DNA of 64,000 nucleotides from Alphaproteobacteria bacterium. Lineage in GTDB: Bacteria > Pseudomonadota > Alphaproteobacteria > Micropepsales > Micropepsaceae. The stretch spans positions 1-64,000 of the forward strand of contig JAFKEW010000065.1 of assembly GCA_017308375.1 (NCBI GenBank), read 5' to 3'. Position numbers and translations under genes: made by a program. Below, in pieces: positions 18,566 to 20,645 of this stretch. Each line of letters opens with the position of its first letter. Position 1 is the first letter of the stretch. The notes under the pieces are model-generated. The model saw nothing but the letters and a program-made list of their open reading frames with translations. It made no database searches and was not told the DNA's origin.

Positions 18566-18600
18566 GCCGAAAAGGCCCGTGACAGCGGCACTTTAGAGAT

Positions 18601-18618
18601 GTGGTATTGCAATACCAC
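18601..18618. promoter_or_regulatory. 18-bp perfect palindrome, GntR/FadR-like operator candidate
   Basis: GTGGTATTGCAATACCAC is identical to its reverse complement and contains the TGGT...ACCA half-sites typical of GntR/FadR-family operators. It ends exactly at the left target duplication of the IS1595-type element. Without the element it would lie about 51 bases upstream of the enoyl-CoA hydratase gene; it is also 36 bases upstream of the rplM -35 box. Which gene it controlled is inference. Confidence 0.55.
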
Positions 18619-18626
18619 AAATCGCC

Positions 18627-18649
18627 GGCGATTGTATACTTGATTACAC
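18627..18649 (+). repeat. left terminal inverted repeat of the IS1595-type element
   Basis: It begins GGCGATTGTATACTTGAT and matches the reverse complement of 20611-20633 at 22 of 23 positions. Confidence 0.93.
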
Positions 18650-18747
18650 GGGGTAAAGGATGAACTATCTCAACGGAAAGATCGCCAAAAAATCAGATGC
18701 ATGTAGAGCGCGCGCTAAGATAGAAACAAGAAGGAGGTCGCGAACAC

Positions 18748-19398
18748 CTATTTACGTGGAAGAGGCTTTTCTAGACGCGGGAGTCGACCGCCTTTTGCGC
18801 TACGATCCAGAGCGTCATAATCCAAAGGATTACGTGCTGACCATTGCCTCAGCCATTCTGGGGGTTCCTTGTCGGCGTGGTGAGTGAAGCGGCCGTATTT
18901 TGCGCGGAATGGAACCCCGTCGAATTGATTTGTAAGGTCTGAGCCGATCCTAGAGATGCGACATAGCTTTTTCTCCAAGGCTGCTAACTGCGCCGTCTTC
19001 ATTGGTTGTTTGGGATCGACAGTTCGCCTTGCACAGGGCTCTACGGTTTTTGTCCGCGAATTCGCGCGCCAACCCCACATACCGTGCATCGCATGATTGC
19101 GCGCAACTTTTGTCTCGTTGAGGAGATCGCAGAACTGCTGAACCTTTGCTTCCATATCAGGGTCCTGCAAACGCTTCCGGGCCATGCTGATAAAGTTAGT
19201 TTTTGCTCCCATAGGCTTTTCAGTGATTTGGAGCGCCTCCAGTTCTTTCCACGACAGACCGGAGACGCGGCAGAGCAACCTCTCTACAAAATGTTCTACT
19301 TGACCCCAAAGCACCACGACACGGCCTAACCGAGCATGTTCTTTGTCAGTAAGCGGTGATATGAATGCAGGAACGTATTCTAACGGATCATCCGCCAT
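18748..19398 (-). CDS. HEPN-like protein carried inside the IS1595-type element
   Basis: The 216-residue product is soluble and mostly helical. Residues 100-105 are RNHAMH, an exact RX4H motif with the polar residue after Arg that typifies HEPN ribonuclease active sites; it lies in a helix after ETKVA and is followed by GMWGW. An earlier helix (LWGQVEHFVERLL, residues 30-42) supplies acidic residues in the position usual for HEPN domains. The C-terminal ~100 residues are unassigned. AGGGGA lies 7 bases before the ATG. The gene lies wholly within the element, leftward and downstream of the transposase. HEPN assignment is motif-based; an RNA-cleaving toxin or defence role is inference, and no obvious MNT-type antitoxin partner is present. 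Confidence 0.6.
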   Translation of the reverse strand: MADDPLEYVPAFISPLTDKEHARLGRVVVLWGQVEHFVERLLCRVSGLSWKELEALQITEKPMGAKTNFISMARKRLQDPDMEAKVQQFCDLLNETKVARNHAMHGMWGWRANSRTKTVEPCARRTVDPKQPMKTAQLAALEKKLCRISRIGSDLTNQFDGVPFRAKYGRFTHHADKEPPEWLRQWSARNPLDYDALDRSAKGGRLPRLEKPLPRK

Positions 19399-19567
19399 GC
19401 CAAAGTCCCCTGATCCGACGAAAGGCGCCGAGTTTCAGAGCGTGATCCGGCATTTCTTGAAAACGCCCCCGAAGCCTTTCACGCCCAGAGCGAAGGTTAA
19501 ACCGAGTCGGCTTAAGAAGGCTTCCGCCAAGCCTTCTTCCCCCAAAACGGGCGGCAGAAAGGCGTGA
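19397..19567 (+). CDS. small Lys/Pro-rich passenger protein of the IS element
   Basis: The 56-residue product begins MPKSPDPTKGAEFQSVIRHF and ends in a basic tail rich in Lys, Pro and Ser. Small proteins with this PDPTK.AEF pattern recur next to ISXO2-type transposases as I recall them, so it may be a normal part of the element rather than cargo. It is divergent from the HEPN-like gene, and the two ATG codons overlap on opposite strands in the palindrome CATG at 19396-19399. An upstream in-frame ATG at 19343 is less likely. Function unknown. Confidence 0.55.
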   Translation: MPKSPDPTKGAEFQSVIRHFLKTPPKPFTPRAKVKPSRLKKASAKPSSPKTGGRKA

Positions 19568-19602
19568 CTTCGTAGCCTCTGGCTTTGCGCCAGCGGATGA
19601 AA

Positions 19603-20571
19603 TCAAGCGTTCGCTGCCTGATTGTCTTGAGTTTTGTTAGTCCGCCGATAGGTGAGGCGCTTTCCGGTAATGCCTTTAACGGCCTTCTCGGTACGCATGG
19701 CATCATCAATGCCAAACTTGGCACGGGTGTTGGCGCGGAAATCAAATTCGGCCAGATAGCGGTCTAGGTGCTGTTCGCCGCAATGCTGATACGTCCCAAC
19801 CATGCCGCGCTTGAACACGCTAAAGAACCCTTCGAGGGTGTTGGTGTGGACCTTGCGACCAGCCTTTCCAGCGCGGACATATTCCTTGTTGTGGTCAACT
19901 GCTTCATGGATGCGGACCAAGCCGGTGTCAGTGTAAAGACCTGAACCATCGGTGTGCAGCGTCGAGGCGGGATGCACGTTGACGCGGAGAATATCCTTGA
20001 TCTCCAGCTTGGTGCCGTCCTTGACGCGCTGGCTGCGAATTTTGCCGCCGCGTTCGACAAGGCTGACGATCTTCATTTTGTGACGAAAGCCGCCCTCTTT
20101 GGGGCGCTTGCGCTTGCCATCGGCCTTTCCGATGTACGCCTCATCGGCTTCCACGATCTTGCCTTGTCCACCGAGGGGGCCAGCATCGGGACCGGACGGT
20201 TTCATGCCTTCGCGGATACGATGCGCCATGAACCAGGCCGTCTTGTAGGTGACGCCCAACATGCGGCTTAGCTGGTGGCTGCTGATGCCCTTCTTTGACG
20301 AGCAGAGCAGATGGGTGGCGTACAACCACTTGTGCAGCGGGACGTGGCTGCGTTCGTAGAGGGTGCCAACGCGGACGGTGAACTTCTTGCGGCAATCGCC
20401 ACAATGCCACCAACCAGCACCTAGAGCGCCTTTGGCAGGTAGTGCCTTGGCGGCGCCGATCTGGCCGCAGAACGGGCAAATGACGCCTTCTGGCCAACGC
20501 TGGCCTTCCAGATATGCGCGGGCAGCATCTTCGTTCTGGAAAATCGGGTTCTTGAGAATGCTGGCGGCCAT
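19603..20571 (-). CDS. IS1595 family (ISXO2-like) transposase
   Basis: This 322-residue transposase has an N-terminal zinc ribbon (CPFCG ... WHCGDCRKKFTV, residues 32-66), a helical DNA-binding region, and the DDE-type catalytic core: VEADEAYIG, LHTDGSGLYTD and HTNTLEGFFSVFKRGMVGTY. Length and motif order match ISXO2-like transposases. No frameshift or missing catalytic segment is seen, so it may be active. It starts 62 bases from the right end of the element and reads inward. Confidence 0.95.
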   Translation of the reverse strand: MAASILKNPIFQNEDAARAYLEGQRWPEGVICPFCGQIGAAKALPAKGALGAGWWHCGDCRKKFTVRVGTLYERSHVPLHKWLYATHLLCSSKKGISSHQLSRMLGVTYKTAWFMAHRIREGMKPSGPDAGPLGGQGKIVEADEAYIGKADGKRKRPKEGGFRHKMKIVSLVERGGKIRSQRVKDGTKLEIKDILRVNVHPASTLHTDGSGLYTDTGLVRIHEAVDHNKEYVRAGKAGRKVHTNTLEGFFSVFKRGMVGTYQHCGEQHLDRYLAEFDFRANTRAKFGIDDAMRTEKAVKGITGKRLTYRRTNKTQDNQAANA

Positions 20572-20610
20572 GGGTGTCTCCTATGCGTTGAAACATAGGT
20601 TATTGGCGAT

Positions 20611-20633
20611 GTGTAGTCAAGTATACAATCGCC
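20611..20633 (-). repeat. right terminal inverted repeat of the IS1595-type element
   Basis: It ends AAGTATACAATCGCC and is the inverted partner of 18627-18649 with one mismatch. The flanking AAATCGCC at 20634-20641 is the second copy of the target duplication. Confidence 0.93.
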
Positions 20634-20645
20634 AAATCGCCGGTC

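Follow-up and report, generated by a model that had tools for sequence, protein, structure and literature searches.

The comparisons reported here point to a family of IS1595 elements that exchange different toxin-like cargo behind the same type of transposase, with some members apparently placed at fixed palindromic chromosomal sites. The element studied lies in a stretch of 64,000 nucleotides (the window) and is a complete IS1595-family element of 2007 bp (18627-20633), delimited by terminal inverted repeats (TIRs) and a target-site duplication. The 8-bp duplication AAATCGCC was read directly from the sequence on both sides (copy 1 at 18619-18626, copy 2 at 20634-20641) and is exact, with 8/8 positions agreeing between the flanks. 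Repeat comparison located the distal, cargo-side TIR at 18627-18649 on the forward strand and the proximal, transposase-side TIR at 20611-20633 on the reverse strand; they are 23 nt each with one mismatch between them. A search with the TIR pattern allowing up to three mismatches matched just these two copies in the window and nothing in 100 shuffled sequences. The TIRs and the 8-bp duplication, along with a DDE transposase bearing an N-terminal zinc ribbon, are those of the IS1595 family. Only four genes are present within the element, namely the transposase gene, an HEPN-like gene and, reading the other way, two small ORFs, p56 (19397-19567) and p75 (18660-18887), neither of which was in the initial annotation. 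The transposase and HEPN-like genes are each single-copy in the source genome. The initial annotation had described the gene for the 216-aa protein as a passenger in an intact IS1595 element, and the boundaries bear this out, as the gene (19398-18748) lies wholly between the TIRs and the duplication is exact.

The transposase (322 aa; 19603-20571, reverse strand) was identified from its ORF and from domain matches to Pfam DDE_Tnp_IS1595 (2e-29) and Zn_ribbon_IS1595 (5e-10) and to NCBIfam IS1595 (1e-54), and the HEPN-like gene follows directly downstream in the same direction. A pattern search detected a single sigma-70-like promoter in the element, TTGACT-17-TATGTT (20592-20620, reverse strand), assigned to the transposase, in a count no higher than in shuffles. 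Its -35 box TTGACT sits inside the proximal TIR, and most related elements likewise have TTGA in their proximal repeat. No promoter for p56 or p75 was found in the element by the sigma-70-like search.

Judging from its sequence and predicted model, the 216-aa cargo protein (18748-19398, reverse strand) is very probably a divergent HEPN domain. Its ORF, alignment and predicted model indicate a structured core at about residues 9-165 and a disordered tail. The exact RNHAMH motif, an instance of RX4H claimed in the initial annotation, is read from the translation as R100-N-H-A-M-H105 (19084-19101, reverse strand). Homologues were gathered from 385 alphaproteobacterial genomes, from the order to which the window belongs, from a genome-contig scan and from an independent transposase-led search. 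R100 and H105 are unvarying in 22/22 aligned homologues, whose identity to the window protein is 12-80%; N or H occupies residue 101 in 20/22, and position 35 (E35 in the window protein, codon 19294-19296, reverse strand) is D or E in 22/22. The aligned homologues therefore show the HEPN pattern RX4-6H with a polar residue after the arginine, and position 35 provides the further conserved acidic residue of HEPN domains. RX4H was also present in all 15 HEPN cargo proteins of a second, separately drawn element sample, so the conservation that the initial annotation had asked to see across homologues was found in both sets, with the caveat that the motif itself helped the profile find the homologues. 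Compared with its 81% homologue, the window gene shows 36/18/118 differences at the three codon positions, indicating strong purifying selection on the HEPN gene. A chance ORF, considered as an alternative, was rejected on this pattern.

The structural model points to the same assignment. Modeling of the core with 22 sequences gave a pLDDT of 92 and a pTM of 0.85 (a full-length model was also made), with four main helices predicted at residues 18-46, 63-76, 80-105 and 135-160. In the predicted model RX4H closes the third long helix and a beta hairpin comes next. In HEPN domains helix 3 ends with the motif, and Csx1 has such a beta hairpin (PMC3710099); since RX4H ends helix 3 as stated there, the predicted model agrees with the four-helix HEPN fold. 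The fold check proposed in the initial annotation thus returned a confident predicted four-helix-type bundle, at the level of a model.

Direct search of the window protein gave no match in Pfam, NCBIfam or PDB, and Foldseek searches of the PDB with two models returned generic helical bundles and no significant match (none with E<=0.001). Foldseek against viral models gave one hit, the unnamed protein A0A4Y5TZQ9 (E 7.5e-4). Among 31 members, weak Pfam matches were few; HEPN_Apea recurred (two members, best 0.0092), along with HEPN_RiboL-PSP (0.049). Genome-derived alignments of AbiU2 and HEPN-T gave negative profile comparisons, none of the anti-phage models matched convincingly, and no homologues of the HEPN-like protein were present in plasmid collections, phage collections or IMG/VR. 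Because no Pfam, PDB or profile comparison reached significance, the HEPN identity is well supported yet inferred. Accordingly, the proposal of an HEPN ribonuclease candidate in the initial annotation stands as regards RX4H conservation and the predicted fold, whereas profile and fold searches did not tie the protein to a known HEPN family.

The two small ORFs lie on the forward strand. The first, p56 (19397-19567), is a Lys/Pro-rich ORF of 56 aa with the conserved motif LxTPPKPhxP. It is oriented divergently to the HEPN gene and runs antisense to the interval between the transposase and HEPN genes, and the two divergent start codons share a CATG (19396-19399). The sequence AGGGGA (19406-19411, reverse strand), a possible HEPN ribosome-binding site, is opposite p56 codons 3-5. 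A divergent p56-like ORF of at least 45 aa starting at the HEPN CATG is found in 16/22 homologues, with the HEPN start codon chosen by alignment at some of these loci. In a second set of elements, later drawn from the order of the window and scored with the models already made, p56 was enriched with HEPN cargo (13/15 vs 10/40). As p56-like genes also occur with unrelated cargo (NYN, DUF1828, RelA/SpoT, HNH-like and DUF3800), p56 looks generic rather than HEPN-specific, and its role as a dedicated HEPN antitoxin was rejected. Beside other cargo, the p56-like gene is sometimes second in a pair of genes that read in the same direction.

The second ORF, p75 (75 aa; 18660-18887, conserved part about 18741-18869), is convergent with the HEPN gene and overlaps its last 140 nt. 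In the second set it was detected, using a short model, in 7/10 complete HEPN elements vs 0/25 others (p 1.8e-5). Its motif was found only alongside HEPN cargo, which favors p75 over p56 as a candidate cognate inhibitor. A Bradyrhizobium HEPN homologue that lies outside an IS1595 element has p75 present and p56 absent. Third-codon differences in the HEPN gene are fewer under the p75 overlap (12/41 vs 105/160, p 3e-5), as expected if both strands code. Neither p56 nor p75 gave a nucleotidyltransferase match.

A transposase-led survey recovered complete related elements with repeats and 8-bp duplications, and wherever boundaries were found the cargo was downstream of the transposase. HEPN-like genes were present in many members of the first element set, and dozens of related elements have one in this slot; the passenger carriage noted for IS1595 elements in the initial annotation applies repeatedly to HEPN genes. 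Phenylobacterium and Brevundimonas are among the carriers of close relatives. Other cargo in the first set included DUF3800, NYN, PIN, DUF433, DUF1828, RelA_SpoT and a methyltransferase with an Mrr-like domain. The second set had HEPN cargo in 15/55 elements, all 15 with RX4H, which indicates a frequent cargo and not a fixed part; about 70% of related elements hold other cargo in the HEPN slot. HEPN and transposase identities are uncorrelated (Spearman -0.20), and joint descent of the two genes was rejected on this basis. The window element and that at locus L013 have HEPN proteins 81% identical and transposases only 56% identical, and at L051 two IS1595 elements stand back to back with overlapping boundaries, their transposases 83% and their HEPN cargo 14% identical. 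The absence of correlation implies cargo exchange, very fast HEPN evolution, or both. The initial annotation had asked whether the HEPN gene is conserved with the transposase; the slot and the gene class are kept, while co-descent is contradicted by the uncorrelated identities and the share of other cargo.

Further cargo types were also seen in these elements. A second, longer HEPN-like cargo family (L057, L063, L067 and L071) lies on the opposite strand with RNxxxH invariant; its L057 member matches Pfam HEPN at 1.3e-4, and profile comparison with the window family aligned the RNxxxH motifs of both, but weakly. In at least three members of this second family the transposase is directly followed by another kind of small ORF, one that carries a DDPEQSKRFI-like motif. 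The element at L142 (2005-3855), located beside rplM, contains another RX4H cargo, a 180-aa gene with RNAIAH, together with a 390-aa gene that presumably resembles DUF262 proteins. In L089 a frameshift appears to split the HEPN-like cargo, which is probably decayed.

The insertion point of the window element is the edge of a perfect 20-bp palindrome, TGTGGTATTGCAATACCACA (18600-18619), about 95 nt upstream of rplM. The flanks of 61 distinct complete elements were alike in register in 34/7320 pairs vs 1/21960 out of register. The window element, L050, L089, L142 and the decayed L083 occupy the same place upstream of rplM, beside the palindrome GGTATTNNAATACC or a close variant, and L049 is also beside rplM. 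In 20/20 loci examined, rplM is preceded at about 90-130 nt by this palindrome, which occurs once per genome and is mostly element-free; in the window genome its variant occurs once. The rplM-site elements differ in target duplications, repeats and cargo. A single inherited insertion was rejected as the origin of the shared position, given that duplications, TIRs and cargo differ between species with each duplication intact. The rplM site instead looks targeted, because elements with different cargo, repeats and duplications occupy it in other species of the genus.

Insertions beside other symmetric sequences were also observed. Nine IS1595 elements (L057, L071, L090, L091, L095, L096, L101, L102 and L114) abut the dyad CATAATATNNNTTATACGA or CATAATNNNNATTATG, in either orientation and at a fixed spacing that leaves the dyad intact. 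Nearly all genomes of the genus contain a single copy of the CATAATATNNNTTATACGA dyad and, going by the E. coli sequence, we take it to resemble the XerCD dif site of chromosome dimer resolution. Four other IS1595 elements (L104, L120, L125 and L134) are next to REP-like stem-loops, GAGGTCGAAA...TTTCGGGTGGGGG.

With the anatomy, the motif conservation, the recurrent association and the selection observed as above, the explanation that we prefer is an IS1595 transposon whose cargo, an HEPN RNase, is restrained by small partners encoded antisense to it, and we give this explanation an even chance of being right. The cargo would be an HEPN-fold, metal-independent RNase, probably dimeric, with R100, H105 and perhaps E35 in its active site. 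Its gene would likely be transcribed behind the transposase gene, from the promoter with its -35 box in the proximal TIR. Both p56, situated between the transposase and HEPN genes, and p75, lying across the HEPN 3′ end, would be transcribed against these genes and would restrain the HEPN gene through antisense transcription and probably also through their proteins, one or both of which may inhibit the RNase. Under stress or infection, failure of this restraint would release the RNase and arrest the cell or the invader, with defence or addiction as the possible benefit to the element. The fold class, the RNase activity, the inhibition and the benefit are thus proposed here by inference.

Other accounts of the cargo were weighed against this one. 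A helical-bundle protein that conserves RX4H but does not cleave RNA, and instead binds nucleic acids or has a structural role, say, would agree with the lack of a significant structural or profile match and with the generic helical bundles from Foldseek. Against this, the invariance of precisely an arginine, a histidine and an acidic residue while nearly all else varies is the pattern of a catalytic site, and we find this account improbable. Equally, the direct downstream, co-directional position of the HEPN gene might suggest a regulator of transposition that, for instance, cuts transposase mRNA and belongs to the machinery of the element with no host-level effect. This seems quite improbable to us, as other cargo takes that place in most related elements and HEPN and transposase do not co-diverge.

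A less remote, still unlikely, account keeps the RNase and dispenses with its partners: the gene would act on its own in abortive infection, switched on by a phage product, with p56 and p75 unrelated and an antitoxin unnecessary. The Tha protein is non-toxic alone and is triggered by a phage tail protein (PMC11087260), and the company that p56 keeps with many cargo types, as well as the Bradyrhizobium homologue found outside an IS1595 element and lacking p56, would suit such a gene. The great diversity of the HEPN sequences is also as expected for a defence gene under changing selection. Nevertheless, p75 tracks HEPN cargo, the Bradyrhizobium homologue included, and the anti-phage models offer no convincing match, both of which speak against this account.

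Toxin-like cargo is known from Tn3 and Tn7 elements, whereas insertion sequences are usually regarded as hardly more than a transposase. More broadly, and slightly short of an even chance, one lineage of IS1595 elements in Alphaproteobacteria may be a miniature site-selective cargo system, with one exchangeable toxin-like module behind the transposase, most often an HEPN RNase with antisense-nested partners, and with some sublineages at fixed dyads (the rplM palindrome and the dif edge). If the cargo is a swappable RNase with antisense-encoded control, the question of whom such cargo benefits, element or host, could be studied in a very small and tractable setting. At the CATG, where the two starts overlap, the first codons of one gene are apparently opposite the ribosome-binding site of the other, an arrangement in which overlapping-gene regulation could be studied. 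Insertion at a fixed position next to dif or the rplM palindrome, if true, would be a target choice for which no description was found for the IS1595 family.

Several known systems share parts of this arrangement. IS1595-family elements with passenger genes have been described (Siguier, Gagnevin and Chandler 2009, as cited in PMC8101967), and the window element resembles them in its transposase, TIRs, 8-bp duplication and downstream passenger; a literature search that took in the citing article found no published description of HEPN as recurrent IS1595-family cargo. Insertion directed to dyad-symmetric sites is known from the Tn5053-type 'res site hunters' (PMC7765201) and from REP-targeting IS elements (PMC1525189). 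The elements described here similarly insert at dyad-symmetric recombination or repeat sites; however, the sites are an rplM-upstream palindrome and a dif-like site, and the elements that use them belong to the IS1595 family.

HEPN proteins have also been found on other mobile elements. The HEPN-MNT (HepT-MntA) toxin-antitoxin systems include one whose HEPN toxin is carried by a transposon, the Tn3-family TnSod9 (PMC7157771, PMC7641770). In contrast, the window element has small partners on the opposite strand and no MNT nucleotidyltransferase gene, and it is therefore not a member of HEPN-MNT (type VII). A single HEPN gene as mobile-element cargo is likewise known from an integron cassette (PDB 3jrt; PMC3710099), which differs in being an integron cassette with neither a transposase nor antisense partners. 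By analogy, the closest experimentally tested precedent is Tha/Ith of Staphylococcus aureus prophages, where a noncontiguous operon encodes an HEPN RNase and, antisense to it, its small inhibitor (PMC11087260). Inhibition by Ith has been demonstrated experimentally, whereas p56 and p75 are candidate partners, and Tha has a long N-terminal region and resides in a phage rather than an insertion sequence. In gene geometry the two nevertheless correspond, each with an HEPN RX4H protein on a mobile element and a small opposite-strand gene nested with it.
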